Origin: Puniceicoccaceae bacterium
GTDB lineage: Bacteria; Verrucomicrobiota; Verrucomicrobiia; Opitutales; Coraliomargaritaceae
Direction of reading: 5' to 3'
Assembly (NCBI GenBank): GCA_007117865.1
Contig: SKFT01000041.1
Location: forward strand, 1 to 42,279
DNA: 42,279 nt
Of this stretch, positions 111 through 30,887 are shown piece after piece. The translations under genes and the position numbers were made by a program. The notes below the pieces were generated by a model. That model saw only the letters and a program-made list of their open reading frames with translations. It did no database searches and was not told the origin of the DNA. The number at the start of each line of letters is the position of its first letter. Position 1 is the stretch's first letter.

Positions 111-479
111 CTAATGGGCGTGTAGGGGTAATCCTTTAATCAAATTCTTTACATTATTGGCAACCAGCAAGCCCATGCTGATGGCGGTTAGCAACCAGGC
201 AGGACTTAGTGCAAGGATTAGAAAAGCACCGCGCAAAGGGTCCACCTTGAAAAGCAGTATTAGGCCACGCGCGGTTAACACAGCTAGTCCCAGTAAATAT
301 ACCCCCAGTAAGGGGTAATAAAAATCCAGCACAAAATGCCTAAGCCCGACAGGATAACCACCTGAATTGAGCCAAAAGGCAGGTGTCTCCTTAAGAGCGG
401 TTAGCGCACATATGGCGATTGCGACAATGAAACAACTTAGACCTAGGAAAATTGCCTGCATAAAATTATCGTTTTCCAA
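111..479 (-). CDS. Small hydrophobic membrane protein, unknown function
   Basis: 122 aa with several hydrophobic segments; start overlaps the 3' end of the flippase gene by 14 nt. Confidence 0.7.
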   Translation of the reverse strand: MENDNFMQAIFLGLSCFIVAIAICALTALKETPAFWLNSGGYPVGLRHFVLDFYYPLLGVYLLGLAVLTARGLILLFKVDPLRGAFLILALSPAWLLTAISMGLLVANNVKNLIKGLPLHAH

Positions 480-2010: not shown

Positions 2011-2042
2011 AGCCGTTTATCAAGCAGGAGTTGAGAGTTTAA

Positions 2043-3440
2043 CTAAGGGACGATTGGTTCCGATTCGGACTTGTCACGACGGGATTGGTTTTGTTTGAGA
2101 GCAGCAACAATAGCAATTGCAATCATCATTAAAAAGAAGATTGGCGTTTGACGGAAGGATAACTGAACCATCGACTGGACGTGACATACCAAACACAACA
2201 AGGCGGAACCAGTCACAGCGGAGAGGGGCATTCCACGAAGTCGCCAAATGATAAGCGGGGCCGACATGGTAAAAAAACGCAGCCAAAAAAGGACAAAAGC
2301 GATGAGCCCAGGATAACCAGTTTCTCCGAGTGTGAGGAACCAAATATTATGAGCCGGCGTTCCCGGTGGATTATCCGGATCAACGCGGGCGGCATATTGA
2401 TCCCAGGAAAATGCTGAAAAATTGCCCATACCGACGCCAAACAAATGCTCTGAAGCCATCAGTTTAGCCTGATTATTGTAATACATACGATACTCCAGAT
2501 CTCCGGCAGCGTCCTGTTCACCAACAAAACGATTGAGCAGCGTATCGGCAGCAGCGGCCAAAACAAGCACGCCAGCAAAACCACCCAGAAACAATAGAAA
2601 GCCGTTTTTTATGGAAATATTGCGCCACCCGAGAAGAAGAAAAGCGAGACCCAAGCCAATTATCAAGGCTCCCAGCCCTCCCCGTGAAATCGTCATAATC
2701 ACACTAAGCCCTGCAAGGCCCAAGCCCGCACACAACAATCCAACCCGAAAAAAGCGCTTCTCCGCCAGAAGAATAGCAAACATAAAGGTCCCTGACATCG
2801 CCATATAAGTCGCCAGGGAATTGGGATGCTGGAAAGTTGCCTTCACGCGATGAATGCCGTGGATATAACGATCGGTCAAAACGACATATCCCAGATAGAC
2901 GGCGGCAAGCGCAACACCGAGAACAACCGTATCGAGATTTTTAACCTTGCGCAAATAATAGTACAGGGCGAGGAAAAGAAGAAAACCACGTATCCACTTG
3001 CTTGTCTCAAAAAGAGGATAGAGTCGGGTCTCAAAAATATCGTAGGGCAGAAAAAAGGGATGCATTTGCGCCGCCTCAGGCACAACAATCGATGCGGGAG
3101 CAAAAATCCACGACAGGATCCCGGATGCGATCACAACAATAAAAAAAAACGACATGGGCGGGATACCCGGGGCTCGGTATTCATCGCGCCTCAAAAAAAT
3201 CACCCCCAATATCACCAGCGCGCATAAATCACCCAAACTGATTTCAATTCCCTTGGTAAGGGCGAAATAAAACTCACGGGAATAAAAATTAATGGAGGTA
3301 TCATCTGGAATGACGGTGGTAAAGATCAGCAATACGACAACCCCCTTGAGTACTACCGGGAACCGATAGGCAAAAAGAATTCCGACCGGCACGCCAATGA
3401 ACGTAGCCAGAAAAAAGATGACATATTTTAGCTCAGACAT
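2043..3440 (-). CDS. O-antigen ligase/polymerase-like (Wzy/WaaL) membrane protein
   Basis: 465 aa polytopic; periplasmic-loop motif GVGMGNFSAFSW...PGTPAHNIWFLTLGETGYPGLIAFVLFW typical of Wzy_C/O-antigen ligase family. Confidence 0.87.
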   Translation of the reverse strand: MSELKYVIFFLATFIGVPVGILFAYRFPVVLKGVVVLLIFTTVIPDDTSINFYSREFYFALTKGIEISLGDLCALVILGVIFLRRDEYRAPGIPPMSFFFIVVIASGILSWIFAPASIVVPEAAQMHPFFLPYDIFETRLYPLFETSKWIRGFLLFLALYYYLRKVKNLDTVVLGVALAAVYLGYVVLTDRYIHGIHRVKATFQHPNSLATYMAMSGTFMFAILLAEKRFFRVGLLCAGLGLAGLSVIMTISRGGLGALIIGLGLAFLLLGWRNISIKNGFLLFLGGFAGVLVLAAAADTLLNRFVGEQDAAGDLEYRMYYNNQAKLMASEHLFGVGMGNFSAFSWDQYAARVDPDNPPGTPAHNIWFLTLGETGYPGLIAFVLFWLRFFTMSAPLIIWRLRGMPLSAVTGSALLCLVCHVQSMVQLSFRQTPIFFLMMIAIAIVAALKQNQSRRDKSESEPIVP

Positions 3441-3455
3441 TGCTTGAGAGCAAAC

Positions 3456-4580
3456 TTATGGCTGGGGTAAGTCGGGACGAACCGTTTCCGCATCAGCTCC
3501 CTCGATAAAGCGCACACCCTCGTTTGCCGCGACCGTGTTGGCTGCGGTGGACAGAATGACCTCGACATATCGCTCAAGCCGCTCCCATGGGCTGGTGGGG
3601 ATAAAAAGCACGTCTCCGGGCAACACAGGGATATCCGACTCGCGACCACGGAGAATGGCATCGAGATTAATGACCGCCACGCGCGGATTGGAGAAGCTAC
3701 CCCGCAATAGAAGCATACGTCTAGAATGTGCATTTGGGAGCAAGCCATCCGCCTCGGCAATCGCACCTACGATGCCCTGTCCCTCTCGCCACCCGACAGC
3801 TTTGGGAGTCCCTACCCCACCAAGCACAAGGATTTCGAGGGTGCTTTTGGGCGGTAAAAAAATAAAGTCCTGATCGCGCAGGTAGACATTGAAGCGCATA
3901 TCGCCACGATTAACCAAGGCTTCAAAATCAATGGGAAGGAGGCGACCATCACGTGCTAAAATAGCACGCGAGAGGTCGGCAAGCTCCTCGGTCGTACCAG
4001 TGCCTCCGGCAATCTCAATCCCACCGGCACGGGCGATTCCGTCAATCAGAGTCGTGGGCTGGTTGAGTTGATAAATATTTGGACTATTGACCTTGCCCAG
4101 AATAGTGAACCGGCGACTTTGCGCAGTATGCAAGGAGACTGAAACATCGGGACGGCGATAGTAGGCGCGCAGCGCCTCTGTAAGCTCGCGCGAAAGTTCA
4201 GAAACCGTCTTACCGACTGCCTGAACCGGCGGGGCCAGGTCGTAGTGAACAAAGCCATCGGGCATGACAAAAGTTCGCAGACTGGCGTTGGGGTCATCCT
4301 CGCGGGCATTTAAACGATAGATTACGATCTCATCGCCTGGTCCAAGATGATAAGGACCAGCCGGGGGGAGCAAATCCGCCGGTTGCAAGGGAGGACGGTC
4401 TACCGATTGCCAGGAAAGACCAGCTGGCGATTCGAGGCGCGGATCAAAGGTAACCTCATCAGGCGGGAGTGTTCGGCAAGCCGAGAGGTAAAAAATGGCC
4501 ACACCAATCATCAACGAAGCGAAGAGGCGACCCAAGTGGGAACTAATACGATAAACCGGAGCTTTCATGACGTCATTCAT
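3456..4580 (-). CDS. Wza-like polysaccharide export lipoprotein (Poly_export/SLBB)
   Basis: Lipobox-like LSAC near N-terminus; YHLGPGDEIVIYRL...VMPDGFVHYDLAPPVQAVGKT; FTILGKVNSPNIYQLNQPTTLIDGIARAGG SLBB-type repeat. Confidence 0.88.
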   Translation of the reverse strand: MNDVMKAPVYRISSHLGRLFASLMIGVAIFYLSACRTLPPDEVTFDPRLESPAGLSWQSVDRPPLQPADLLPPAGPYHLGPGDEIVIYRLNAREDDPNASLRTFVMPDGFVHYDLAPPVQAVGKTVSELSRELTEALRAYYRRPDVSVSLHTAQSRRFTILGKVNSPNIYQLNQPTTLIDGIARAGGIEIAGGTGTTEELADLSRAILARDGRLLPIDFEALVNRGDMRFNVYLRDQDFIFLPPKSTLEILVLGGVGTPKAVGWREGQGIVGAIAEADGLLPNAHSRRMLLLRGSFSNPRVAVINLDAILRGRESDIPVLPGDVLFIPTSPWERLERYVEVILSTAANTVAANEGVRFIEGADAETVRPDLPQP

Positions 4581-5631
4581 TATTGCGGCTACCGGGAATT
4601 ACCGGGTCGGAAAAAATAATGGGCGCATTGGCACCTGTCCATGTAGCGGTGGCACTGCGCAGGAACACAGCGACTGCACGATCAAGGATTTCCTCAGGCT
4701 TATACCACGGACGGTTGCTTACAAAAACGACGTCTTTGGGCTCGAGTGGAAAATCCGCACGCGCTCCGCGCAAGATTTCACGCACATTGATAACATGCAC
4801 CTCGGGCGTTTCCATGCTACCCCTAACAACAATAACTCTCTCACGAAAAGCCGACTGGGTGAACCCTTCGCGCTTGGTTATGGCAGCAACAACGGAAGCC
4901 CCGGCAGTAAAACCCTCACGACCGGGATTGGTTACGGCACCGAGCACATAATAATCGTTAGCCAGAGCAGACGCAATCTGGATATAATCGCCAGGGGCGA
5001 GAGCCACGTTCTGGCTCATATCACCCTCCAGCAGTAATTTTGAGAAGTTGACTGGCAAGCGATAGCCATCGCGAATAATAAAACTCCGGTCGAGATCCGC
5101 CAGATCAACATAGCGACCATCGAACAGACCCGATTCAGTACCGCCTGCCCGCGCAATGGCCTCGACTAAAGTGATCGGGCTATCAAGGGCAAATACACCG
5201 GTAAGCCGCACCATGCCAATAATGGTGTAACTGCTACTTGCCAGCTGAATAGGGGTAATGATAATACGCGGATTCCGATATAGCGAAGACATCGCCTCGG
5301 CAATTCGCAGACGAGCTTCCTCAATCGTTAAGCCAGCCACCTCAATATTGGTTGCGGCCAAATAGGAAAGGGTACCGTCAGGGGCAATGGTGACCTGTGG
5401 ACGAGTGAGATTTGGACGGCCGTAAAACTGTATAGAGAGGACATCGCCAGCGCCCAGACGATAAGGTAACTGGCCGTAGGCGGGAGGCAAGTCAATGGAA
5501 TCGGCAGCATCCGAAACAATCGCCGCATTGGGCAAATCGCCCCAAACAGATGTCGATTCTGCTGAAACAGACAGGCACATGCAAACGGATGCACCTACAA
5601 TCGAAGTAAAGAACTGCTTAAAGCTAAACAT
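4573..5631 (-). CDS. Second Wza-like polysaccharide export protein
   Basis: Signal-peptide-like N-terminus; YRLGAGDVLSIQFYGRPNLTRPQVTIAPDGTLSYL; YTIIGMVRLTGVFALDSPITLVEAIARAGG; paralogous to the adjacent gene. Confidence 0.88.
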   Translation of the reverse strand: MFSFKQFFTSIVGASVCMCLSVSAESTSVWGDLPNAAIVSDAADSIDLPPAYGQLPYRLGAGDVLSIQFYGRPNLTRPQVTIAPDGTLSYLAATNIEVAGLTIEEARLRIAEAMSSLYRNPRIIITPIQLASSSYTIIGMVRLTGVFALDSPITLVEAIARAGGTESGLFDGRYVDLADLDRSFIIRDGYRLPVNFSKLLLEGDMSQNVALAPGDYIQIASALANDYYVLGAVTNPGREGFTAGASVVAAITKREGFTQSAFRERVIVVRGSMETPEVHVINVREILRGARADFPLEPKDVVFVSNRPWYKPEEILDRAVAVFLRSATATWTGANAPIIFSDPVIPGSRNNE

Positions 5632-5636
5632 GCTAA

Positions 5637-7718
5637 TTAGAAGGAAAACCTTGAGCCAAAACCGACAATCCCGCGCAAATTATCATTTTTGCGAAGCAAA
5701 GCCGACTGAACCTGTAGGTCACTTTTACGGCTCTGCCCCAAGGCACAAAGAACGACCAAGTCGGGAGCGGATGCCAACAGGCTGCTATTGGTCTCGTTCA
5801 AAGGTCCTTGCACCAACAACCAAACCTCAGGAAAGCGATTGCGAAACATACTCTCGCGTTGCTGAGGAAGATGCAGTTGTTTGTCAGAAATCTGACAACG
5901 ACACAGATTTGAATTCATTTGCTGCGCGTTAAGGTCGTCAAAATGGGTCGATTCGAAAGCCTCGACCTTTACGATGGCGGAACTGGGCGGGTGAAAAACA
6001 AGCACGTGAGTGTCGAGTGATTCAGCCGCACGAGCGAGAAGATGCCAGAATTGTTTCTCTGCCGGGTGTTTTTGCGGACACCAAAATACCCGAAGTCTGT
6101 TCTGCTCCAACGGACTGATAACATCGGCCCAGAGTTTTTGCGCACGGGCATCCTCTTCATCAGCTGTCAGACGGGACTGTGCTGGCACAATCGCAAGTGA
6201 ACGCGTTCCGAAGATACTGGCAGCCTCGCGCGAAGTCCGCAAGGTGTCATCCAAAAACTCACGCATGGCACCGATGAGCACGCCCAAGCCAAAGAAAGCG
6301 GCACCACCAAAAAAACCCAGAAATACCACCTTGTTAGTACGGGAACCGATGTAAACCTCGCTCTCTCTGGGCAAACGGAAAATGCGGAAATAACCAGGGG
6401 CAAGCTCCTCAAATCCGGCGACTTCCTGAAGCCGATTGTTCAAGGCGTCACGGGCAGCGGCAACGGCCTGAGCCGATTCCATAAGGCGACCCGCCTCAAT
6501 GGCAAGGTCGGGTAAGTCGCGCAATCGCTCCCTTGCTTCAGTTCGTAAAGCCTCAATTTTCTGCTGCTGCAAGAGTAAGGATTTTTGCCGCGACTCAAGT
6601 TCGAGAATCTGCAAATAGAGGGCATTTCCGACATAAGTGCCCGTGAATTCAGAAAAGTCGATATCCTCGGCTGTGATGGTTCGATTGACCCTGCGCCGGA
6701 GGGCCTCGACCCGATCCTTGGCATCCTGAAAAATTGGATTTTGCGGCGTGTAGTATTCTGCCATTTCTTCCAATCGCGCCTCCTCTGCCTTGAGTTCCTC
6801 AAAGCCCGGGCTATGCTTGCGGATTTCATTACGCAACGCAGCCAATTGAAAACCCAAGGCCTCGAGGTCGACACGATTTGATTCAAAATTGGTATTGAGA
6901 GTTGCCAGAGACCGCAGGTAGGCATCAATTTCACGCTCGGCATCGACTACCCCTGATTCCTCGCGCAAAGCGAATATTCCTGAGTTCAGGCGTTGCAATT
7001 CACGCTCCTTGTTTTGCAACTGTTCATTCAAGTGATGACGCAAATCCGTGCTTTCCACAACTTGCAGGGAACTGGTAAACGCGATTGCCTCCTCAGCCCA
7101 AACCGTTGCCAGTTCAGCTGCCTGGCGAGTCGTCAGCGGACCGTAGATAATGATATCGACAAAATCGGTTCGGCGAACTTCCTGGATGTTCACCATGTCC
7201 GCCAAACGCCCGGCGGACATATCCCACTTCAGGCGATCGGCAACCTTTTCAGCAACCTGAGGTGCCGCCAATGCTTGCAGCAAAGTGGCACCCTGAACGC
7301 GCGAAGGCGTATAAGCCGTGCGATTGGCCGCAAAAGCCTCAGGGTTACGCGTTATCAGACGGGCGGAAGCAGTGGCGTAAACATCAAAGACCTTCAGCCC
7401 GGCAAAAATTCCCAGTGCCAATCCAAGTAAACAAAGCGGCAGTGAAATCCACCATCGACGGAGAATACCAAACGGCAAGCGCAACAAGTCGAAACCAAAA
7501 AAAACCGTCTGTGGTAATGGCAGATTGGCAAGTCCAGCAGGATTTTGCTTGATCTCATTCGCCGAGACAGGGGATCTCGCTGAAGATTTTCTGGAGTTAT
7601 CCGGGCGCGGAGGAGGTAAAGCCTGATCGTCTTTGGAAGCAGTCTTAGGTGATTTTTTCTGCCAATCACTGACACGTAATGGCGGATCTTCCTTCATTGA
7701 GGCAACGCCCTCCCCCAC
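5637..7718 (-). CDS. Wzc/GumC-like polysaccharide co-polymerase with C-terminal degenerate BY-kinase-like domain
   Basis: Two TM segments flanking a coiled-coil Wzz-type periplasmic region; C-terminal alpha/beta domain lacks Walker A. Confidence 0.82.
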   Translation of the reverse strand: MGEGVASMKEDPPLRVSDWQKKSPKTASKDDQALPPPRPDNSRKSSARSPVSANEIKQNPAGLANLPLPQTVFFGFDLLRLPFGILRRWWISLPLCLLGLALGIFAGLKVFDVYATASARLITRNPEAFAANRTAYTPSRVQGATLLQALAAPQVAEKVADRLKWDMSAGRLADMVNIQEVRRTDFVDIIIYGPLTTRQAAELATVWAEEAIAFTSSLQVVESTDLRHHLNEQLQNKERELQRLNSGIFALREESGVVDAEREIDAYLRSLATLNTNFESNRVDLEALGFQLAALRNEIRKHSPGFEELKAEEARLEEMAEYYTPQNPIFQDAKDRVEALRRRVNRTITAEDIDFSEFTGTYVGNALYLQILELESRQKSLLLQQQKIEALRTEARERLRDLPDLAIEAGRLMESAQAVAAARDALNNRLQEVAGFEELAPGYFRIFRLPRESEVYIGSRTNKVVFLGFFGGAAFFGLGVLIGAMREFLDDTLRTSREAASIFGTRSLAIVPAQSRLTADEEDARAQKLWADVISPLEQNRLRVFWCPQKHPAEKQFWHLLARAAESLDTHVLVFHPPSSAIVKVEAFESTHFDDLNAQQMNSNLCRCQISDKQLHLPQQRESMFRNRFPEVWLLVQGPLNETNSSLLASAPDLVVLCALGQSRKSDLQVQSALLRKNDNLRGIVGFGSRFSF

Positions 7719-8557
7719 GGCAATGACTGGTGGCGCTGAAGATCGCGGATAACCGATTCGATATCCTTTGCATCCACCTGACTCTTGTTACTGGCGGCAG
7801 CTGAATCCAATGCGAGTTTGGCCAGGCGGTTGATCTCGCGAGGTACGCCGTTGCTAGCAGCAAACAAGGGCTCAATCACAGACTGATCAAACAAATCACC
7901 ACCAGCGTGTCCTGCCACCTGCAAGCGATGACTTAAATAACCCGACAACTCATCCTGTAACAAATTAGGCAAATGGAATCTTAGACTGATACGCTGATCC
8001 AGCGGGGGCAATTTGGCAACTTGAGTCCGTAATTCGGGTTGCCCAATCAAAACAATGGTAATACGGCAATCGGCTTCACCATTAAGATTCGACAAGCGCT
8101 TGAGCGAAGTCAATGTGTGATGATCCAAGTCCTGAGCCTCATCAAAAAGGAAAACCAATTGACGTCCCTGCTGCTTCTGCAAGGCACTCGCGAAATCGCC
8201 AACGGCATCGAACAATCCGGCGTAATCATCTGCATTAGGGATATCCGATGATTCGTAACCGGCTTTTGCAAAGAGTTTGACCATCAAATCGCCAAATGAG
8301 AAGCCGGAGTTTTCGAACTCAACGACGTAATGTCGGCGACGATCCATACGCTCGGTAAACACCTTGCGCGTGATAGACTTACCGGCTCCGATCTCACCGG
8401 TAAGCATTCCAAAATACATCGACTCCTGATCAACAAGATAAATCAAGCGTGCAAGGGCCTCTTCGTGTTCCCTGCTGGCATAGAAAAAACGAGCATCAGT
8501 AACGATTTCAAAAGGCCGCTCGGATAGGCCAAAATGCTGAAGCATAGGATCTGACAT
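7694..8557 (-). CDS. ExeA/GspA-like AAA ATPase (XrtA-system-associated ATPase type)
   Basis: MLQHFGLSERPFEIVTDARFFYASREHEEALARLIYLV; Walker A GEIGAGKS; Walker B VFLFDEAQDL. ORF extends to 8599, but the Met at 8557 fits the family N-terminus. Confidence 0.87.
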   Translation of the reverse strand: MSDPMLQHFGLSERPFEIVTDARFFYASREHEEALARLIYLVDQESMYFGMLTGEIGAGKSITRKVFTERMDRRRHYVVEFENSGFSFGDLMVKLFAKAGYESSDIPNADDYAGLFDAVGDFASALQKQQGRQLVFLFDEAQDLDHHTLTSLKRLSNLNGEADCRITIVLIGQPELRTQVAKLPPLDQRISLRFHLPNLLQDELSGYLSHRLQVAGHAGGDLFDQSVIEPLFAASNGVPREINRLAKLALDSAAASNKSQVDAKDIESVIRDLQRHQSLPWGRALPQ

Positions 8558-8644
8558 TGGCGATAACCTATCGGCATATGAGACAAGATGACAAGTCAAT
8601 TAGCTTGCCAAGCATAACACGGAACCTTAGTTGGATATAGCATA

Positions 8645-9865
8645 ATGAAAATACTCCTTGGAGGTGTCCCGTTTGGACGAAACAATATCGGCGATGAAGC
8701 AATTCTTGCCTGTGTTATCAAAATCGTCCGGGCAGCAGCTCCGCAAGCTGAGATAACGGTCAGTACCGATGACCCTGAAACGGCACAGCGTCATGCTGTA
8801 GGCGTTTGTTCGCTTTATGGATTTGATGTGGTCGCCTATTCCGAAGCAGCCATGCAAAAAGAAATGGCAGCTCACGACTTTTATTTGTGGGCCGGAGCCA
8901 CCGGATTGTCAGATTATCCTGATCGAGCCTGTCAACTGCTGGCTGCCGCCCGTCAGGCAGGGTGTCGATCAATTGTCTGGAATGTTGGTATGAACAGCGA
9001 ACTGAATCCGGCCAAATATAAACTTCAGGGGCGGCGCCTTAAGCTGGTGCAAATTGCGGATAAGATGAGCGGTGGGCTGTTGGGCGCGCAAAAGCGAATG
9101 GAAGGGCTCAAAGAATTACAAGCACGCAAACAATTACGCCGGGAACTTTTGGATTGTGCCTTAATTGTAACCCGGGATCCCCAAAGTGCCGCTGAACTGG
9201 TCGGCTGCGGAATTAGCGAAGAGAGCATTATTGTGGGTGCGGACTCCGCGCTCATAGAGACTGCCAGCGAATGGCCACCAAGAGCCCTGGCCGAGGATGA
9301 CAAAGCCCGACTGGAGCGCAAAAATCGCAAACGGATTGGATTGTGTATCAGCGCTCAACGGGAAATAACCCGTCGCAATGAACTTATTGCAGCGCTGAAT
9401 CGACTGTTGGAGGATCCTAAGATTGAAATTGTCGGTTTACCGATGAATCCTATCACTGATCTTGCGCTACTGGATGATCTAAGGAAGGACATTGTGCGTC
9501 GAGAGGCCTTTTATCCACTGCGAGGAATTGTGGAAACATCCGACATGACAGCGATTGCCGCGCGTATGGACGTATTGATTAGCAGCCGTCTGCATTTGTT
9601 GATTTTGGGGTCGATTCATCATGTGCCTATGATTGGCATCAGCCGAGGCTCAAAGGTCGATAATTTTTTAGCACCCTATGGATTAAAACCCGTTGGTTCC
9701 GTCGAATCGTGCGACTTTGATGCTCTGATTCAAGAGACGCAACGACTGCTGAACGCGCGTGCAGCATTTGAGGACACCAGTCAACGAGTCCGCCGCGAGC
9801 TTCTGGCGCGTTTGGACGCTGCGCGGCTGGAACTAACTAAAGTCTTACAACGGGATAAGTCATAA
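8645..9865 (+). CDS. Polysaccharide pyruvyl transferase family protein
   Basis: MKILLGGVPFGRNNIGDEAILACVI N-terminus; C-terminal ISSRLHLLILGSIHHVPMIGISRGSKVDNF typical of PS_pyruv_trans. Confidence 0.85.
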   Translation: MKILLGGVPFGRNNIGDEAILACVIKIVRAAAPQAEITVSTDDPETAQRHAVGVCSLYGFDVVAYSEAAMQKEMAAHDFYLWAGATGLSDYPDRACQLLAAARQAGCRSIVWNVGMNSELNPAKYKLQGRRLKLVQIADKMSGGLLGAQKRMEGLKELQARKQLRRELLDCALIVTRDPQSAAELVGCGISEESIIVGADSALIETASEWPPRALAEDDKARLERKNRKRIGLCISAQREITRRNELIAALNRLLEDPKIEIVGLPMNPITDLALLDDLRKDIVRREAFYPLRGIVETSDMTAIAARMDVLISSRLHLLILGSIHHVPMIGISRGSKVDNFLAPYGLKPVGSVESCDFDALIQETQRLLNARAAFEDTSQRVRRELLARLDAARLELTKVLQRDKS

Positions 9866-11129: not shown

Positions 11130-12004
11130 ATGATTCAGAGCCTCCCCAAAAAAAAGCAACGATTGCGATTATAATGCGCGCCAAGGACGAGATGCCCTAC
11201 GCGAAGTGCGCACTGGCGGCACTTCGCAGTCAGACCCGACGCGATTGGAAGCTTTACGCAATTGACTCGGGATCGATTGATGGCACGCTTGAGGCGATAA
11301 AGGAGTTCCCACCTGATGAGCTGGTGGAGATCGCCCCGCAAGACTACGAACCGGGCCCCGTACTCAACCAAATGGTTGGCATGACAAAAGAGCCGCTTAC
11401 AGTCTTTCTGAACGCTGATGCGATCCCGCTCGACGAACACTGGCTTGCACGACTGATCGCACCCGTGGAAGCAGGTGAAGCGGATGCCACCATGAGTGTG
11501 CAAGTTGCCCGCGCCGATGCCGACTTTATCGTCGCCTACGACTACTCCCGCGCCTACGACCCGAAAAACATTAAAGACGACAATGAGGACTTCTTTTCAG
11601 CTGTTGCCTGTTGCTTCCCGCGTAAACTTTGGGAAAAACATCGGTTCAAGGACAAGGGCTACTCTGAGGACCTTGCCTGGGCACGCGCCTGCCGACGCGA
11701 CGGGGCCCGCTTTAAGCTCGTGACGGAATCACGGGTTGAACATTCGCACAACTTTACCATACCCGGACTGCACCGCAAACGATACCGTCACGGCCGTGCC
11801 TACGTCGACATTTTCAACGCCCGCCCCAGTGCGATTCGCCAAAGTCTCACCTGTGCCAAGGAGATGGTTCGCGACCTCCTGTATGCTATCCGCCGAGGTC
11901 GTCTGGACACCATTCCTTTCAACCTCGCCCACCGCTATACTATCCACCGCGCCCTTTACCTCGGGATGCGCGACGAGTGCCGCGAACGAAGCCTACACCA
12001 ATGA
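11126..12004 (+). CDS. Glycosyltransferase family 2
   Basis: IAIIMRAKDEMPYAKCALAALRSQTRRDWKLYAIDSGSIDGTLEAI; LNADAIPLDEHWLARLI; ATGA overlaps with both neighbours. Confidence 0.9.
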   Translation: MNDSEPPQKKATIAIIMRAKDEMPYAKCALAALRSQTRRDWKLYAIDSGSIDGTLEAIKEFPPDELVEIAPQDYEPGPVLNQMVGMTKEPLTVFLNADAIPLDEHWLARLIAPVEAGEADATMSVQVARADADFIVAYDYSRAYDPKNIKDDNEDFFSAVACCFPRKLWEKHRFKDKGYSEDLAWARACRRDGARFKLVTESRVEHSHNFTIPGLHRKRYRHGRAYVDIFNARPSAIRQSLTCAKEMVRDLLYAIRRGRLDTIPFNLAHRYTIHRALYLGMRDECRERSLHQ

Positions 12005-13197
12005 AAACGTTAGGTCTATATGTGTTTATTGATGCCCTCGGTTGGGAAGTTCTAAAAAAACATCCGGAATTTCTGGCGGACCTGGCACCACATCGAAAAC
12101 CGCTGGAAACCATACTTGGCTACTCCTCTGCCTGTGACCCCTCGATCATTTCTGGACTGACGCCCTCGGAACACAAGCTTTGGTCTTCCTATTACTACCT
12201 GCGTGAAGGCGCGTCACCTTTTGCGTGGACCCGCTGGCTGGGCTTATTACCGGAAAGTCTTAGTGAGCGTGCACGCGTTCGGCACTATCTCTCGAAGCTG
12301 GTCAAAAAAGTCTGCGGCATCAGCGGCTACTTCCAGCTATACAACGTACCCTTTCGCTATCTACCACTCTTTCACTACGCCGAGTGGAAACGGATTTGGG
12401 AAATCAAGCCCGAGGGGCTTCCCGAAGGCAGCACGATTTTCGATCTGATGCATGCCGCCGGATTGTCATGGTATGTCCACGACAGCCGTAAAAAAGATGA
12501 AGGAAAACTGGCTGACCTGCATCAGGCACTAGAAGCTGGTGAGATCAATCTTGCCTACATCAGCCTCGGCAGGCTGGACGCGCTCATGCACGCTGAGGGC
12601 ACCAGTAGTCCGAAGATAGCTGAACTCCTCAAATGGTATGATACCCGTATCCATGAACTCATGACGACTGCCAGTGCCAGCTACGACGATGTGCGGCTGC
12701 ATATATTTACCGACCATGGGATGCACGACATCCACGAGGGTTACGATCTGCAAAGGGATATTGATGCCCTTGGCCTGCGCTTTGGGAAGGATTACATTGC
12801 CTTCTATGACTCCACCATGGGGCGCTTCTGGCCACTCACGGGGACGGCTGAGACGCGTCTGCGCGAAACATTGCTTGAGCATCCCAAGGGTCGCTTACTG
12901 CCTGAGGCGGAGTTGCGAAGACTCGGAGTCTATTTCCCCGATGGCCAATACGGAGACCTTATTTTCCTCATGCACCCCGGCATTCAGATCGCGCCCAGTT
13001 TCATGGGGCGCAAGGCGATTGCAGGAATGCACGGTTTTCACCCGGAAGATAGCGACTCCCGTGCCATGATCTGCGCCAACTACGTGCTGCCAGTTGATTT
13101 GACCTGCATACAGCAAATCTTCGGCCTCATGTGCGCGACCACCGGACTTACGCCTCCGGCAGGACGGGCCGTGCCGCAATCACTTTTTCAACCATGA
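12001..13197 (+). CDS. Alkaline phosphatase superfamily / nucleotide pyrophosphatase-phosphodiesterase-like protein
   Basis: ORF listed from 11977; the ATG at 12001 overlaps the upstream stop (ATGA). Metal-site-like motifs FIDALGW, SACDPSIISGLTPSEH, GRLDALMHAEG, IFTDHGMHD, GMHGFHPED. Confidence 0.78.
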   Translation: MKTLGLYVFIDALGWEVLKKHPEFLADLAPHRKPLETILGYSSACDPSIISGLTPSEHKLWSSYYYLREGASPFAWTRWLGLLPESLSERARVRHYLSKLVKKVCGISGYFQLYNVPFRYLPLFHYAEWKRIWEIKPEGLPEGSTIFDLMHAAGLSWYVHDSRKKDEGKLADLHQALEAGEINLAYISLGRLDALMHAEGTSSPKIAELLKWYDTRIHELMTTASASYDDVRLHIFTDHGMHDIHEGYDLQRDIDALGLRFGKDYIAFYDSTMGRFWPLTGTAETRLRETLLEHPKGRLLPEAELRRLGVYFPDGQYGDLIFLMHPGIQIAPSFMGRKAIAGMHGFHPEDSDSRAMICANYVLPVDLTCIQQIFGLMCATTGLTPPAGRAVPQSLFQP

Positions 13198-14492: not shown

Positions 14493-15431
14493 ATGGAAAT
14501 TAAAATTGATTTACCTTTAAGTATTAAAGAAGAAACGCTGATTGACATGCACAGCATTCTCAACGTGTTGAACGTTACCACCTATGAACTGATGCAGATG
14601 CAAACACTCTTCGGTGATGACTACGACATAGAAGAGGCAATCGATGATAACAGTCGGGCAGCAGAGCTATTAAAAGATCCTGACAAAGCCTACGACCTGG
14701 TCAATAATATTGACCAAGTGCTACAAAGGCTTAGGCAAAAAGTGCTGCTTGGTGCGGAAACATGTGGCCTGAGTAATGACCCCAACTTTCTCAAACACCT
14801 TGCCAACCTCGACTCAATATTCAATATAACGGGCATTCGAGCTGCCGAGATCCAAGCACGCCATAAAAACCCGATGGCATGGGTCAAGCACCCGATTGAC
14901 AAACTAACTAAAAATTTCAGCGAAGTATTGCGCGCGATAGAACGTAATAGCCATGGAGGCTATCGTATTGTAAATAACATCGCGGAACATGAGGATGGCA
15001 ATTATTTCGTAAACTTTGAAATTACCAGTTGCCATGGCGACGACATTTACATGCCAGCCGTATTACAGGATGTGGTAAGGGATTTGATTGCAAACGCGAG
15101 AAAATATACTGCTCCCGGAGGAAAAATCATTGCTGGCCTTTCCGAAACCCAAAACGAATTGAGGTTTGTCATATCGGACAATGGAAGCGGTATCCCGCCG
15201 GAGGAAATCGTGGCCGTGGTTCAATACGGCAAGCGAGGTAGCAACATGGCACATCGACCAACCCGAGGTGGCGGCTTTGGTCTGACCAAAGCCTGGTATG
15301 TAACCAAAAAATTTGCGGGTCGCATGTGGATCGAATCCACCGGCGAGGCGGGTAAAGGCTGTTGTATACGCATCGCACTGCCAATACTGGCAGAGGGATT
15401 TCAGGACCAAGGCAACCCTCAACCCGACTGA
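14493..15431 (+). CDS. Soluble histidine-kinase-like HATPase protein
   Basis: N-box DLIANARKYTAPGG, G1 ISDNGSGIPPEE, G2 RGGGFGLTKAWYVTKKFAGRMWIESTGEAGKGCCIRIALP; no TM segment; possible H at IDMHSILNVLN. Confidence 0.82.
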   Translation: MEIKIDLPLSIKEETLIDMHSILNVLNVTTYELMQMQTLFGDDYDIEEAIDDNSRAAELLKDPDKAYDLVNNIDQVLQRLRQKVLLGAETCGLSNDPNFLKHLANLDSIFNITGIRAAEIQARHKNPMAWVKHPIDKLTKNFSEVLRAIERNSHGGYRIVNNIAEHEDGNYFVNFEITSCHGDDIYMPAVLQDVVRDLIANARKYTAPGGKIIAGLSETQNELRFVISDNGSGIPPEEIVAVVQYGKRGSNMAHRPTRGGGFGLTKAWYVTKKFAGRMWIESTGEAGKGCCIRIALPILAEGFQDQGNPQPD

Positions 15432-15438
15432 GCAAGCA

Positions 15439-17034
15439 GTGAATCCAGCGCCTATTGTCATTGCGATTGCCGGACCATCCGGCAGCGGCAAGTCCATGCT
15501 TTCGTCTGGCATACAGGCACTATTGGGTCGCCATCAATGCGTGGTATTGGGCATTGATCATTGCTACAAGGATTGGTCGCATCTACCTGGCGAACAACGC
15601 AACGAGATCAATTTCGATCAGCCACAGGCATTGGACACGGTCAGTATTGTATCCGCCCTTGCCAGGCTAATCGAAGGGCAGTCAATCATTTTCCCGCGAT
15701 ACGATTTTAGCCAACATGCCCGCAGTGAGATCGGTGACATTATCAAACCCGCACCTCTAATCCTGGTAGAGGGCATATTCGCCCTGGCCATACCTGAAAT
15801 ACAGAAATGCTTTACCCAGTCATGGTATGTAAACCTCGATTCCGATACCTGTCTGGAGCGTCGACTCAAACGGGATGTAACTGAGCGCGGAAGAGATGCC
15901 GAAGAAGTGCGGTCACGATTTGAACGTGACGTGCGACCGTCGATTAGGGATTGGGTCGAACCGCAACGTAAATTTGCAGATTCTATTTTTGATGGAAACA
16001 AACCGTGGGAGCGCTTACTGGAAGAGGCAATTGCTCATTTACGAACTTTGCTTAGCGCACAACCCAAAAACTTGATTATCATTGAAGATAATCCACCAAT
16101 GCCGACCGAGCAAAATCTTGCCATAGGTGCTCGGATGGGAATGAAGCTGCTTGATAAAAGATTACTCAAAGAGACTGCACTTCCTAAATCAGGAAGCAAC
16201 CTATGCGAGGACGGCCTTCGCTTGCGTCGGAAGATGCGACGCAATCAATGCCTGCACAATCTGCTTCGTTATACAGGGTTAAGCGCGATTGGCAGGCGTT
16301 TTTCAAAGCAGATTAAATTAGAAAAAAACAGCGTCTTTGTCCGCAATTTGCCAACGGAACTGGATGGCTTCAAAATCCTTCATATCAGCGATTTGCATCC
16401 TGATTTGGGATGCGAATGGCTACCAAGCTTAGTTGAGCTTATATCCGGTGAAGCATACCATCTGGCGGTAATAACCGGCGACTTTCGAAATAATTTTCAG
16501 CCAAACACCCGCCTCAGTATAAAAAAAATCTCCCCCTTATTCGACGCGCTAAAATCACCGGTTTTTGCGGTCTTGGGCAATCATGATCTTATCGAAATGG
16601 TATCGGAGCTGGAAAGCCGTGAAATACGGGTTTTGCTGAATGAAGCAGTGGTATTGCAGCATTCCGGAGCACGTATCTGGTTGGCAGGAGTGGATGATCC
16701 TTATTTTTTTAAAACAGATGTGCTGAATCTGGCTTTGCCAACCGAAGCGGATAGCGAGTATTTGCGTATCCTGCTGGCTCATAGCCCAGGCGTCTATCGT
16801 TCGGCGCTGAAAAACTTTGATCTTCTGCTGGCGGGCCATACCCATGGCGGACAAGTCTGCCTACCCGGTGGGATACCCATTATCCGTAATGGGAACTGCC
16901 CCTCACGCATGCTGGCAGGCGCATGGCAAGAAGGCAATTTGCAGGGATATACCTCCAGAGGCGTAGGGTGCAGTGGCGCATCCATTCGTTTTTTTTGTCC
17001 GCCGGAAGTCACGCTTCATACCCTGAGTAAGTAA
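15439..17034 (+). CDS. Uridine-kinase-like P-loop domain fused to calcineurin-like metallophosphoesterase (YkuE-type)
   Basis: GTG start at 15439, 7 nt after the upstream stop (ORF listed from 15313). P-loop AGPSGSGKS; ILVEGIFAL; RRLKRDVTERGR; then ILHISDLHPDLG, VITGDFR, VLGNHDL, LLAGHTHGGQVCLPGG. Confidence 0.85.
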   Translation: MNPAPIVIAIAGPSGSGKSMLSSGIQALLGRHQCVVLGIDHCYKDWSHLPGEQRNEINFDQPQALDTVSIVSALARLIEGQSIIFPRYDFSQHARSEIGDIIKPAPLILVEGIFALAIPEIQKCFTQSWYVNLDSDTCLERRLKRDVTERGRDAEEVRSRFERDVRPSIRDWVEPQRKFADSIFDGNKPWERLLEEAIAHLRTLLSAQPKNLIIIEDNPPMPTEQNLAIGARMGMKLLDKRLLKETALPKSGSNLCEDGLRLRRKMRRNQCLHNLLRYTGLSAIGRRFSKQIKLEKNSVFVRNLPTELDGFKILHISDLHPDLGCEWLPSLVELISGEAYHLAVITGDFRNNFQPNTRLSIKKISPLFDALKSPVFAVLGNHDLIEMVSELESREIRVLLNEAVVLQHSGARIWLAGVDDPYFFKTDVLNLALPTEADSEYLRILLAHSPGVYRSALKNFDLLLAGHTHGGQVCLPGGIPIIRNGNCPSRMLAGAWQEGNLQGYTSRGVGCSGASIRFFCPPEVTLHTLSK

Positions 17035-17091: not shown

Positions 17092-18252
17092 ATGTCCAAT
17101 ACACACTTTTTTCCACCATGGAATGAGACGGCAAGGCTCACTGGTGAGGATGGAAAAGCTACCCCGGAGTCAAAGGCAGAACCAGAGGCAATTGCGGCGC
17201 TACGCAGCCAATTAAAGTCGTGGCTGCAGTGGCTGAGGCACGAGGCTGAAAACGTTAGTGGGATGCAGGCCTTACTATTGGCGGGTGGCTATGGCCGTGG
17301 CGAGGGAGGGGTTTGGTGGCCCGACCGGGATCAACCCCCGCAACTCTACAACGACATGGAGTTTTATGTGTTCACCCATCATCTTGCAGCCGCCCGGCTA
17401 CAAGAGTGGATACACGAGGGGGAGGCTCGCCTGGGCATTGAAATGGAATTCAAGGTAATGACCCCGAAGGCGTTTGCCTGTGCGACTCCGAGCATGTTTT
17501 ACTACGACTTATTAAAAGGGCACGTATGCGTTGCAGGGGTGCCCGACTGGATTGATACCCTACCTGCCAAACTTTCCGATGCGCAAGCCATCCCAGCGGA
17601 GGAAGCCAGTCGTCTATTGGTAAATCGGGGAATAAGCATCCTGCGCTGTCTGCGCTGGAGCCGTGGAGCCTATGAGCTTGAGGCAGGCTTTTGTGATCGG
17701 ATTGTAGCCAAGCTCAAAATGGCGCTCGGCGATGCTGTGCTATGTATACACGGCCAATACCACTGGTCCTGTCGCGAACGCAATAAGCGTCTTGCACAAG
17801 TAAGGGATACACCGCCTGACTGGGAGGCCATCGTCACTCATCACCAGGAGGGAGTTGCATTCAAGTTCAGCCCCCAAGTGAAGGGATGTCAGGCTGAGGA
17901 ATGGGAGGAGACGCTATCGTATTGGCAACAAATATGGGTGCAAACCTTCCTATGGCTGGAGAGCAAGCGTCTTGGTAGTGTTTTCTCAACTGCCAACGAC
18001 TACGCCCATTACCAAGGCAAGGTTTTCCGATCAGAGCCGATTTGGAAAAATGTGCTACGACAATTGCGCGACCTAAGGCATTCGCCGCGTTTGCCTTTTA
18101 CACTGAGTGAACATCCGCGCTTGCGGGTGTGGCGCGGTCTGCTCGCACTAATGGCGCACGACGAAGCGACTGCAAAATCGCAGTTGGGTGTCGACGCAAA
18201 CAACTCGGAATTGGAAGAGCTCTGCCGACGTGCATGGCAACGCTATCCTTAA
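17092..18252 (+). CDS. Nucleotidyltransferase-fold-like protein, unknown substrate
   Basis: LLLAGGYGRGEGGVW...LYNDMEFYVFTHH resembles the GSxGRGE...DxE/D signature of minimal nucleotidyltransferases. Confidence 0.6.
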   Translation: MSNTHFFPPWNETARLTGEDGKATPESKAEPEAIAALRSQLKSWLQWLRHEAENVSGMQALLLAGGYGRGEGGVWWPDRDQPPQLYNDMEFYVFTHHLAAARLQEWIHEGEARLGIEMEFKVMTPKAFACATPSMFYYDLLKGHVCVAGVPDWIDTLPAKLSDAQAIPAEEASRLLVNRGISILRCLRWSRGAYELEAGFCDRIVAKLKMALGDAVLCIHGQYHWSCRERNKRLAQVRDTPPDWEAIVTHHQEGVAFKFSPQVKGCQAEEWEETLSYWQQIWVQTFLWLESKRLGSVFSTANDYAHYQGKVFRSEPIWKNVLRQLRDLRHSPRLPFTLSEHPRLRVWRGLLALMAHDEATAKSQLGVDANNSELEELCRRAWQRYP

Positions 18253-18272: not shown

Positions 18273-19343
18273 ATGCATTGGGTTATTGGCATACTAGCAT
18301 GGAATGAAGAATCCTCGATTGCTGCAACATTGCGAAGTCTTGGCGAGCAAACCCTTTTTGCCAAAGCGGCTATGGACTCGGCCAGCGTGGAAGTGATTGT
18401 TGTGCCAAACGGCTGCACCGATCAAACTGCCAATGTAGCGGAGGCGGCACTCGACCGATATATTCGCTGCCATGAAGCAGCCACTGCGCGGGTGGAAAGC
18501 CTGGCGGAAGGCGGCAAGTCCAATGCATGGAATCAATTGATCCACCGTATTGGACCGGAAAATACTGATTATTATTTTCTGATGGATGCCGATATCGAAC
18601 TGCTGACAAGCGATACCCTTGAACGCATGGTTGGCGTCTTACTAAGCAATCCGCACGCACAAATTGCGACAGATACGCCGGTAAAGCATATAGCGAAAAA
18701 AAAGCGCTTAACTCTTACCGAGCGGATTCTCCTCACCGCAGGATCCATGACTCAAACGGCACCGGGGCAACTGACTGGACAACTCTATTGTGCGCGCGGA
18801 CCTGTTTTAAGGTCACTTTTTATTCCCAAAGGCCTGATCGTTGATGATGGATTCATTAAGCAACTCGTTTGCACCGACGGCTACAGTCGAGCCTCAGACC
18901 CGAGCCGGATCGCACGCGCCGAGGGAGCTGCACACCTGTTTGAATGCTATACCCGCTTGCTCGACATCTGGAATCACCAAATAAGGCAAGCGGTGGGTCA
19001 CACGTTATACACCTACTTTACCGGATACATGCGCCGGAAAATGCCTGAACGACCCATTTTCGAAAGCCTAAAGCAAAAATGCCGAGCGGAGCCCGAGTGG
19101 TTTATGCTACATGCTCGAAACGAAATCAAAGCGCGCGGCTTTTGGGTAATGGATCGCGGGTCCTTCTGGGTTAGATGGCGCCGGGCAAAAGCAGCAAAAG
19201 GAATGCGCAAGCTGCGCTTTTTAGCGCTGGCAGCGGCAGCCACCCCGTTTGATGCCGCTATTTTTATCGTTTCCAATCATCGATTAAAAACCGGACGCGT
19301 CAATAGCGTCTGGAAAGATACCAAAACCTCCACCCTGCAATGA
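18273..19343 (+). CDS. Glycosyltransferase family 2-like
   Basis: MHWVIGILAWNEESSIAATLRSLGEQT; VIVVPNGCTDQTANVAEAA; YYFLMDADIELL. Start chosen at ATG 18273 rather than the listed 18129, which overlaps the upstream gene. Confidence 0.88.
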   Translation: MHWVIGILAWNEESSIAATLRSLGEQTLFAKAAMDSASVEVIVVPNGCTDQTANVAEAALDRYIRCHEAATARVESLAEGGKSNAWNQLIHRIGPENTDYYFLMDADIELLTSDTLERMVGVLLSNPHAQIATDTPVKHIAKKKRLTLTERILLTAGSMTQTAPGQLTGQLYCARGPVLRSLFIPKGLIVDDGFIKQLVCTDGYSRASDPSRIARAEGAAHLFECYTRLLDIWNHQIRQAVGHTLYTYFTGYMRRKMPERPIFESLKQKCRAEPEWFMLHARNEIKARGFWVMDRGSFWVRWRRAKAAKGMRKLRFLALAAAATPFDAAIFIVSNHRLKTGRVNSVWKDTKTSTLQ

Positions 19344-19951
19344 ACAAACAATCACAAACCGCACTGTGTACGATAGTCGTTGGCAAAGCCTATCAAGACG
19401 CGTTTGACCGTTACTGCCGGAAGCGTTTTGAGCGCTACGCCAAAAAGCATGGCTACGATCCTATCATTCTTACCGAACCCGTCCGCGAGCTTCGCGGACG
19501 CAAATTTACCTGGCAAAAGCTATGCCTCCCGGATCAGGATTGGTGGTGGCAATACGAGCAAGTCATCTTCGTGGATGCCGATATCCTGATAGCACGCGAT
19601 GCCCCCCCCTTGCCGATCGTGACGAAAGGCAAGATTGGTGGCGTTCCCGACAAGCTTCCCTATCAGATTAACAGCGGCGTTTTGGTTTACCATCCTGACG
19701 AAGTAATCAAGTCTTTGTTCGATGAAGCGTTATTGGATGAAGACCCGTTTTGGGATCAGCGCGCGCTTACGCGAGTGATGCTATACCGGAATATGGAAAA
19801 AATAATCGACCGGCGCTTTAACCGTCAGTTCTACTTCAAATGCTGGACCCTATTCAGCTCATTATTTCGGCGTCAGTGGTTTTACCACGCATGTCACGGC
19901 AAAATAAAAATGCCCTTCATTCACTGGTGGCTGCGTATTACCTTGAGATAA
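19340..19951 (+). CDS. Glycosyltransferase family 8-like
   Basis: YEQVIFVDADILIARDAPPL (DxD), QINSGVLVYHPDE, HACHGKIKMPFIHWW; ATGA overlap with upstream GT. Confidence 0.78.
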   Translation: MNKQSQTALCTIVVGKAYQDAFDRYCRKRFERYAKKHGYDPIILTEPVRELRGRKFTWQKLCLPDQDWWWQYEQVIFVDADILIARDAPPLPIVTKGKIGGVPDKLPYQINSGVLVYHPDEVIKSLFDEALLDEDPFWDQRALTRVMLYRNMEKIIDRRFNRQFYFKCWTLFSSLFRRQWFYHACHGKIKMPFIHWWLRITLR

Positions 19952-23540: not shown

Positions 23541-25265
23541 TTAGTCGGTTCGAGTTAAAACCATGAGTGTTTCGTCATCCCGTGAAAGTTTGGTGCTACG
23601 GCTCTCTGCCGAACTTCGGGAAAGCTGGTGAAAATGCTGAATGATTTTTTCACCGGGGTAATTGAATTGCGTTTTGAGCCACTCAACAAATGGTCCCCAA
23701 TCGAATAGACGTCCCTCCTCGGTTTGCCATTCATAAAATCCATCAGTCACAAAGAAGCAGCGATCTCCGACAACGATTTCAAGATCGATACTAGCAAAAG
23801 ATTGATCGATAAAAAGTCCCAAAGGCGGATTATTGGCGGCAAACTCGAGTGTTTCGCCTGATTTTTTTAACAGAACAACAGGAGGATGTCCGGCAATGAC
23901 GAGTTGCAATCGCCCCGATAAAAGGTCCAGCCGAAAGATGACACCTGTAATGAACATGGTTTGGGCAGCCAGCTGTATTTCGAGTGCATTGTTAACTCTT
24001 GCGGAGAAATCCGCAGGAGCCTCAGTTCCTCGGCTAAAATCAATAAAGTGGCTACGGAAAATACCGGCAAGGATGGCAGCGGTGACCCCCTTCCCCATTA
24101 CATCGATGATACAACCGACAACCGTGTTGTTGCAGGACGGGCGTATTTCAGCAAAGTCGCCAGCAACCTCAAGTGCAGGATCACAGCTTACGAAAAACTG
24201 CCAGCCATCCGAACTGGGAGGCAAGGCATTGAGCGGCAACAACTGCTGTTGCAATTCGGTTGCAATCTGAAAGGCATGGCGAATTCTGTCCCTATCCGCT
24301 CTTTCACGGTCCATAATGGATCTCGAAAGAGCCATACTCAAGATGCTGCCAAGCGCTTGGATTTGACGCACAACGCGCGAGCCGATGGAGTCTTTATTGG
24401 AATCATATCCCAACGCAAGTAAGGCAACGACGTGCTCATTGTGTGAGATGGGAATGACGCAACCCTCCCGACAAGGCATGGCAGATGGATCCACATCGAA
24501 GGGCAAATCGGCATTGTTGCGGGTCCAGAGCGCGTATGGTTTATTTTCAAGCTGTTGCCAAAGAGAAGGCAGCGCACTGCCGAAACGCTTAAACTCTGGC
24601 TGATGCTTGAGCGCATCCAACTCCGGCAAATCTGAATCGGGAAGCGCCTCAATATGAAAATAATCCGGGGTCCCGGCATCAATGAATACCTGTAGCGTTG
24701 AACGAAAAAAATCGGCAAACGAATCGCCGCCTACAACAGCTTGGCCTAGTCTGTCATAAAGCGCCAGATTTTCATAGGAATCTGCCAATTCATCCAAAAT
24801 AAGTTCCATGGCCGGATCTTCAGGTGCCACCTCCGCCAAGGCAGGATAGGATTTCCAAACCCGCAAAATGTAGACATCGCTACTGCGCGAATGTCGCCAG
24901 TTTTCAACAAACGAACGGATAATAAAGAGACCCCGCCCCCCTTCGGATAGTGGATCCTCCGGCAAAGAAGGATTTTGAATGAGGGAATCATCAGGACCTG
25001 GGCCCGGATCGCGCGTCTCGAGGTAGAACACATTGCCCTCAACCCACCAGGAAATGCGCAACGCCTCGCCTGTTGCGTATTTTGCACCGTGCTTAATAGC
25101 ATTTGCCAACATTTCAGCGAATACCAGTTTCCAGCCATCCACCTCCTGCTCTGCCAGCCCCAAACCGCCAATAAAATCCACAAACTGCTTACTGATGGAA
25201 GCAATCTCGCTGACATCGGCCCTGAGCCGTGCCTGAAACAAATGAATGGTTTTGAAACTGGCCAC
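23541..25265 (-). CDS. RsbW-like HATPase serine kinase fused to GAF-like region and SpoIIE/PP2C phosphatase
   Basis: N-box FAEMLANAIKHG, DPGPGPDD, EGGRGLFIIRSF; C-terminal VAGDFAEI...IDVMGKGVTAAILAG, FVTDGFYEW, SRDDETLMVLTR. Confidence 0.9.
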   Translation of the reverse strand: MASFKTIHLFQARLRADVSEIASISKQFVDFIGGLGLAEQEVDGWKLVFAEMLANAIKHGAKYATGEALRISWWVEGNVFYLETRDPGPGPDDSLIQNPSLPEDPLSEGGRGLFIIRSFVENWRHSRSSDVYILRVWKSYPALAEVAPEDPAMELILDELADSYENLALYDRLGQAVVGGDSFADFFRSTLQVFIDAGTPDYFHIEALPDSDLPELDALKHQPEFKRFGSALPSLWQQLENKPYALWTRNNADLPFDVDPSAMPCREGCVIPISHNEHVVALLALGYDSNKDSIGSRVVRQIQALGSILSMALSRSIMDRERADRDRIRHAFQIATELQQQLLPLNALPPSSDGWQFFVSCDPALEVAGDFAEIRPSCNNTVVGCIIDVMGKGVTAAILAGIFRSHFIDFSRGTEAPADFSARVNNALEIQLAAQTMFITGVIFRLDLLSGRLQLVIAGHPPVVLLKKSGETLEFAANNPPLGLFIDQSFASIDLEIVVGDRCFFVTDGFYEWQTEEGRLFDWGPFVEWLKTQFNYPGEKIIQHFHQLSRSSAESRSTKLSRDDETLMVLTRTD

Positions 25266-29764: not shown

Positions 29765-30887
29765 CAGCCGACTGGCCGGAAGTATCGGTCAGCATAAAAG
29801 CGGTGTGTAGAGCCTCCTCCATCGAACCGGGTGTCGCACCCATGCAGTCAGCATAACTGAAGGCACCCGGCGGTGCATGTCGGATGGGATCGGCAAAGCC
29901 ATCCGGAAGCGCTTCGAGGTCGGCAGCGGGTCTGGGCAACGGACCAAACAAGCGCATCTTTCCAAGCCAAACCATTTTCAAGAGGGTTCGCCTGACAGAT
30001 GACAAATGTCCTTCTTTACCCAACGTCCATTGACGCCCGTCGAAGCCCGTAAAGGTATGTTTTCTATGGCAAGGGCTCGTATTGCGCCAGTGCCACCACA
30101 AACGCAATGCCAACCAGCGCTCGGACCACGTGGGCTTATCGGCTTTGGTCTGTGGGGTCACCCCCGAGGCAATAAAAGCCTCCAACCGGTCCACCCGCGC
30201 CTGATGCCGCAAATTGAGCAAGGTGGCACCTTCCAATACCGCATCCACCAAATCGGTTTCCTGCCCAAGGTAGGTGCCATCACCTATATGGGAATTTGCC
30301 ACTTTGGCCCCAGCCCCAACCATTGCCCCATCACCGATAACCGCCCCCGGACCAATGATGCAACGAGGGCCGATCGAGACGTAATCACCAATCCAATACG
30401 GGGGCTTCAGTTGCGCTTGCGGGTGAATATCGCAGCCGCGACCAATACCCAAATCGAGCGACATCGCGGCAATCTCCTGCTGGAATCGCATCAGCCAACT
30501 TTGTTCGAGGGCACTCCAGTGGCGAATCAGTGCCCAGCCATCCTCTGGCACGGTAATGGGAGGGTCTCCAGGCAAACGGTCAAGCCAATCGTCATAAATC
30601 TCCTGGGCTGGATTTCTTACCGGGCGCACTTCCCAATCCAGAGGCCACAGGGTTGCCTCCTCCATCGCCCTGCGAACATCTGCCGGACGGTCTGCCACCA
30701 GTAAAACAACTTTTTCAATTCCTTGATTAACCGCCTCATCCAGCCAGTGATAGAGCAGGCATTGCTCGCCAACTTTCCATAAAACAAAGGGCTTGGCCCG
30801 ACGCCAAACGGTATCGATGCGGCCCCAGTCCGGCAAGGCATAGGTGCGTTGTTTGATCGATTGCGGATGATTGCCGTTGGTAGCCAT
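29718..30887 (-). CDS. NDP-sugar pyrophosphorylase-like protein with left-handed beta-helix (hexapeptide) domain; catalytic N-terminus apparently degenerate
   Basis: Hexapeptide-type repeats IGDYVSIGPRCIIGPGAVIGDGAMVGAGAKVANSHIGDGTYLG; no recognisable GxGTRL motif. Confidence 0.7.
   Translation of the reverse strand: MATNGNHPQSIKQRTYALPDWGRIDTVWRRAKPFVLWKVGEQCLLYHWLDEAVNQGIEKVVLLVADRPADVRRAMEEATLWPLDWEVRPVRNPAQEIYDDWLDRLPGDPPITVPEDGWALIRHWSALEQSWLMRFQQEIAAMSLDLGIGRGCDIHPQAQLKPPYWIGDYVSIGPRCIIGPGAVIGDGAMVGAGAKVANSHIGDGTYLGQETDLVDAVLEGATLLNLRHQARVDRLEAFIASGVTPQTKADKPTWSERWLALRLWWHWRNTSPCHRKHTFTGFDGRQWTLGKEGHLSSVRRTLLKMVWLGKMRLFGPLPRPAADLEALPDGFADPIRHAPPGAFSYADCMGATPGSMEEALHTAFMLTDTSGQSADVCRRWLEKLLAGDS

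Follow-up and report, generated by a model that had tools for sequence, protein, structure and literature searches.

A gene that joins a uridine-kinase-like domain to a metallophosphoesterase raises two questions: whether the join is real and, if so, what the two enzymes do on one chain. The gene lies in the stretch of 42,279 nucleotides analyzed here (the window), and a sequence-only reading had described it as one uninterrupted frame. Translation of the window agreed, giving 531 codons without a stop at 15439–17034 (+), where the other forward frames hold 21 and 32 stops and the reverse frames 14–26. The GTG start at 15439 falls 8 nt past the stop of an upstream HATPase ORF; a TTG start at 15313 (573 aa) is unlikely and overlaps that ORF. 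A Pfam search of the product placed PRK at residues 7–185 (E 1.3e-29) and Metallophos at residues 311–470 (E 1.3e-10), and the PF00485 score of 103.9 bits against a cut-off of 22 assigned the first domain to the P-loop NTPases of the PRK/uridine kinase family. The motifs from which both domains had been read, GPSGSGKS, LVEGIFAL and RRLKRDVTERGR in the kinase and SDLH, GDF, GNHD and GHTHGG at the metal site, are all present. The gene is divided as follows.

15439–17034, + strand: fused uridine-kinase-like/metallophosphoesterase gene (GTG start, 531 aa)
15439–16053, + strand: kinase domain, residues 1 to ~205 (P-loop GPSGSGKS, lid RRLKRDVTERGR)
16054–16365, + strand: junction and N-terminal region of the esterase family, residues 206–309 (stand-alone esterase alignment, hydropathy)
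16366–17031, + strand: calcineurin-like metallophosphoesterase catalytic domain, residues 310–531 (Pfam, alignment, model)

Since stand-alone esterases of the same family (~315–330 aa) align with the fusion from residue ~215–230 through its end, the protein is a complete kinase joined to a complete ~315-aa esterase (~215–531) and not two domains held by a mere linker. Hydropathy revealed no transmembrane segment in residues 206–309.

A second copy settles whether the join is real. A pattern search of genome contigs with the window protein alone found no relative, and a two-sequence profile search recovered a second fusion together with a zetaproteobacterial kinase–esterase pair. The second fusion, JAFIGE010000237.1, comes from an Opitutales bacterium MAG (genome G095, contig C222) of the same order and another family; it contains no stop and is 51–52% identical to the window protein end to end (residues 5–529). 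Both copies come from metagenome assemblies and the G095 contig is short (4,084 bases), which leaves some room for an artifact that merged two genes. However, the same join in two independent assemblies from different families, at a divergence of 52% identity and with the upstream HATPase conserved at both, makes such an artifact scarcely credible. The fusion is therefore real, and a missed stop or frameshift between the domains, a concern already raised when the gene was first read, is very unlikely, as is a chimera. It is also rare: among ~940 distinct genomes of Verrucomicrobiota searched, two carry the fusion and kinase and esterase are otherwise separate genes, found by the dozen. The sequence-only reading had named homologs that are always separate genes as grounds for refutation; this comes close to the pattern seen, the two fusions being the exception. 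Long frames around the esterases of genomes G094, G109, G172 and G063 encode Metallophos domains only and no kinase, a plasmid search gave esterase relatives up to 43% identical and no fusion, and a search of viral contigs matched the esterase only.

In the kinase tree the two fusion halves form one clade (support 100/100). The esterase halves also form one clade (86/86) with long branches left out; in a first tree that included them the fusions were not joined and the window row was unplaced, an effect traced to the long branches. The simplest account is that the fusion arose once and was then inherited or transferred.

A HATPase_c gene (14493–15431, + strand, Pfam) lies directly 5' of the fusion, and a 58% identical HATPase precedes the G095 fusion, possibly separated from it there by a 116-aa ORF. 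Third-position GC in the window is 0.46–0.49 for the HATPase and fusion genes versus 0.51–0.60 for most flanking genes, weak evidence that would fit joint acquisition. No general tie of the HATPase to the kinase–esterase pair was found, its other homologs lying in unrelated surroundings. The window HATPase has no recognized HisKA domain, and its family is scattered over ~5% of the genomes in the order, where it lacks a constant neighborhood.

The kinase and esterase halves

Among solved structures, the kinase half best matches the uridine kinase of T. thermophilus (E 1.1e-35) and human UCK2 (E 5e-30). The kinase was modeled separately because the full-length model was poor in this region, where its alignment had only two kinase sequences. 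The resulting AlphaFold prediction reached a pLDDT of 95.7, and its best Foldseek match in the PDB was 3asy, the T. thermophilus uridine kinase (TM 0.86–0.91). An alignment of 53 sequences in UCK2 numbering showed that the fusion keeps K33, D62, Y65, D84, Y112, H117, E135, R166, R169, R174 and R176. In UCK2, D62 serves as the base, D84 and R166 contact the ribose hydroxyls, and Y112 and H117 contact the nucleobase (PMC9163393; residue roles also from PMC6274218). The fusion kinase thus resembles Udk, UCK2 and 3asy in fold, P-loop and the published nucleoside and Mg contacts, and because Y112, H117, D84, R166 and R176 are kept in both fusions, the nucleoside pocket looks usable from its residues. 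It differs from Udk and UCK2 in the attached esterase, in its scores and at position Q184, which is R in both fusions, a notable change among the substrate-site positions tabulated. No role for UCK2 Q184 was found in the literature searched. Neighboring positions also vary (F64 to C or Y; Y185 to F). The protein scores just below the NCBIfam cut-off for PRK05480 uridine kinase (174.4 of 180 bits) and well below that for TIGR00235 (147.5 of 220.3 bits). AAA_33 matched at 17.4 bits, under its cut-off of 27, leaving PRK/Udk as the best kinase model. Apart from the fusion, no PRK/uridine-kinase family protein was found in the source genome, which is 83% complete.

The esterase half has a catalytic domain predicted with high confidence in the full-length model, and its metal-site residues (D318, H320, D348, N381, H382, H448, H467 and H469) are invariant in 54 of 54 relatives. 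It shares with YaeI/YkuE (COG1408-like) and LpxG the calcineurin-like fold and the DxH, GD, GNHD, H and GHTH set. A sequence search of solved structures with this half found nothing. YkuE is Tat-exported. The fusion esterase should instead be cytoplasmic, because it lies C-terminal to a cytoplasmic kinase and, in contrast to YaeI/YkuE and LpxG, carries no membrane or signal segment; hydropathy showed its N-terminal part to be free of hydrophobic segments. It falls far below the NCBIfam cut-offs for both YaeI (84.4 of 188 bits) and LpxG (64.6 of 350 bits). It belongs to a subfamily separate from YaeI and LpxG, one that carries GDFR where LpxG has GDxxDR. Of the original label "YkuE-type", the calcineurin-like esterase held; the subfamily assignment is loose, given the YaeI score, the GDFR motif and a cytoplasmic position unlike that of YkuE.

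The weak profile similarity to LpxG (65 bits) could point to a UDP-2,3-diacylglucosamine diphosphatase of lipid A synthesis, a role we consider very improbable. LpxG has a GDxxDR motif and an N-terminal membrane helix (PMC4807358), whereas the fusion has GDFRNN and no such helix, and the score stays far under the 350-bit cut-off. Such a role would also not be needed, because LpxI is present in 41 of the 44 genomes of the family, including the source genome.

Exopolysaccharide context of the genes

The fusion gene sits inside an exopolysaccharide (EPS) cluster of ~42 kb. The sequence-only reading mentioned neither this cluster nor the EPS linkage of stand-alone kinases described below. The window also encodes glycosyltransferases, a WecG-STAS protein, a SpoIIE phosphatase and several histidine kinases. 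Gene names in the window, of which the following are used below, were assigned partly by similarity and inference.

466–9865: Wzx-like, Wzy-like, two export proteins, Wzz-like, ExeA-like ATPase and pyruvyl transferase (similarity, inference)
11977–13197, + strand: alkaline-phosphatase-superfamily (AlkP-type) phosphodiesterase (Pfam; recurs beside related kinases and in G748)
17092–18252, + strand: 386-aa ORF downstream of the fusion (no Pfam match)
30887–31705, – strand: PssY-like priming sugar transferase (Bac_transf; adjoins the stand-alone kinase in other Opitutales loci)
39088–40734, + strand: DHH/CBS/DHHA2 pyrophosphatase-type protein (recurs in EPS clusters of G020, G025, G026 and G095)

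Most of the rest of the cluster is present in G095 on another contig, at 46–86% identity.

Stand-alone relatives of the two halves were then compared, with an EPS locus defined by at least two EPS markers within 5 kb and the window's own EPS genes as baits. By this definition 18 of 28 kinase loci but 1 of 49 esterase loci lie in EPS clusters (Fisher p ~1e-9, merely indicative, as the loci are related and the baits were taken from the window). The stand-alone kinase is a recurrent EPS-cluster gene, with PssY and LbH adjoining it at most EPS-linked loci, although the relatives cannot be counted as independent samples. The other 48 esterase loci show no EPS context, and the esterase family thus has a general role that is not tied to EPS; no constant neighborhood was found for it, a RibB-like gene on the opposite strand occurring at 13 loci. 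In the one exception, G748, a related EPS cluster has the esterase directly beside a homolog of window ORF 17092.

Kinase and esterase also meet as separate genes. In G020 an EPS operon contains the kinase, then a 319-aa ORF, then the esterase; the zetaproteobacterium J005 has the order reversed relative to the fusion, with a kinase gene that follows the end of the esterase gene at a distance of 1 nt. Because the G020 esterase and that of the G095 fusion fall in different supported groups, kinase and esterase have become associated on at least two occasions. The pair from the zetaproteobacterium, its long branch being uncertain, would make a third. These arrangements bear on the idea that the fusion simply joins two co-transcribed EPS enzymes with no catalytic coupling, fixing their expression or localization only. 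The separate genes within one operon of G020 fit this idea, as does the rarity of the fusion, without which most relatives manage. The association has, however, arisen on more than one occasion, and with either gene first, and therefore some functional link seems favored; we regard uncoupled fusion as rather unlikely.

Twelve EPS-linked kinases of Opitutaceae type that adjoin PssY carry H117F/Y, R176Y, Q184F/S/L and Y185W in various combinations.

L083:8312–8950 and L084:8163–8801: kinases with altered UCK2 contacts (alignment)
L120, L135–L139, L142, L143, L145 and L147: further kinases with altered UCK2 contacts (alignment)

The L083 kinase, the one tested, still scores above the NCBIfam cut-off for uridine kinase (197 of 180 bits), and because of this the label "uridine kinase" on such genes may be a misannotation. 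In UCK2, H117Y was reported to abolish uridine phosphorylation (PMC9163393). Since these EPS-linked kinases have lost uridine contacts, the EPS role of the kinase may not be uridine phosphorylation at all, and the Q184R of both fusions could be a step toward loss of the uridine role.

Proposed function and precedents

We tentatively favor, as a possible reading, a cytoplasmic bifunctional enzyme that would manage the phosphates of pyrimidine nucleotides or of the carrier lipid when EPS synthesis is primed. The N-terminal domain would most likely convert a pyrimidine ribonucleoside (uridine or cytidine) to UMP or CMP by ordinary uridine-kinase chemistry. The C-terminal domain, a predicted two-metal phosphoesterase that is probably Mn-dependent, would most likely act at the membrane face and cleave a phosphate or pyrophosphate ester of an EPS intermediate linked to a nucleotide or to polyprenyl. 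At the priming step a PssY-type transferase would use a UDP-sugar and release UMP, and the tethered domains would balance the UMP/UDP or carrier-lipid phosphate pool there. The two domains may also act on unrelated substrates.

The main competitor to this reading is a kinase repurposed in EPS clusters to a non-nucleoside such as a sugar, sugar-lipid or polyprenol, with the esterase removing or processing the phosphate so formed. The twelve altered pockets, the loss of uridine activity in the UCK2 H117Y variant, the altered kinase that nonetheless passes as a uridine kinase and the Q184R of both fusions all speak for it. We judge it somewhat unlikely because the fusions retain the nucleoside contacts, and the contact-altered kinases form a clade distinct from theirs. 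A further extension, in which an undescribed EPS-dedicated branch of uridine kinases acts on a sugar, carrier lipid or EPS intermediate and the esterase reverses or processes this step as a one-chain control point of priming, seems improbable. As for the bifunctional switch suggested from the sequence, nothing was found in support of a regulatory switch.

The claim that no member had been characterized stood for the exact combination: in the limited collection of literature searched, neither a uridine-kinase/metallophosphoesterase fusion nor a recurrent presence of uridine-kinase homologs in EPS clusters was found described. Fusions of a kinase with a phosphatase as such do have characterized precedents. 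Plant TTM1 and TTM2 join a uridine kinase to a CYTH domain, with pyrophosphatase activity reported (PMC8615392). As in the fusion, the uridine-kinase domain is N-terminal to a phosphohydrolase, but theirs is a CYTH/TTM tunnel phosphatase unrelated to metallophosphoesterases, and Pfam found no CYTH match in the window fusion, Metallophos taking its place. Bacterial Pnkp1 also has a P-loop kinase followed by a phosphatase in one chain (PMC4411300), the order that Pnkp and the fusion share. The Pnkp kinase, however, is of polynucleotide-kinase type and belongs to RNA repair, whereas the fusion kinase is of PRK/Udk type and neither a ligase nor a Hen1 partner accompanies it. In clostridial Pnkp the phosphatase is a metallophosphoesterase. 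Both domains of the fusion belong to known families; their combination is new, without making this a system of a new kind. Should the EPS link prove functional, many Opitutales "uridine kinase" genes would be misannotated EPS enzymes, and the fusion would identify the esterase as the enzyme they work with, a pairing open to direct assay.

Further observations in the cluster

The ORF at 17092–18252 carries an LLAGGYGRGEG motif and is possibly a nucleotidyltransferase-like protein; homologs occur in 94 of 376 genomes of the phylum, some inside EPS clusters. The DHH/CBS/DHHA2 protein (39088–40734) is ~50–60% identical in the EPS clusters of relatives, where it often adjoins the AlkP-type protein. 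A SpoIIE phosphatase with an N-terminal HATPase_c_2 domain (23541–25265) and a WecG glycosyltransferase that ends in a STAS domain (36765–37922) together resemble a partner-switching regulator incorporated in the EPS cluster. The kinase of Opitutaceae has a separate STAS-like ORF of ~104 aa beside it. A 203-aa ORF at 19340–19951, with no Pfam match, is 86% identical in G095, versus 52% for the fusion.
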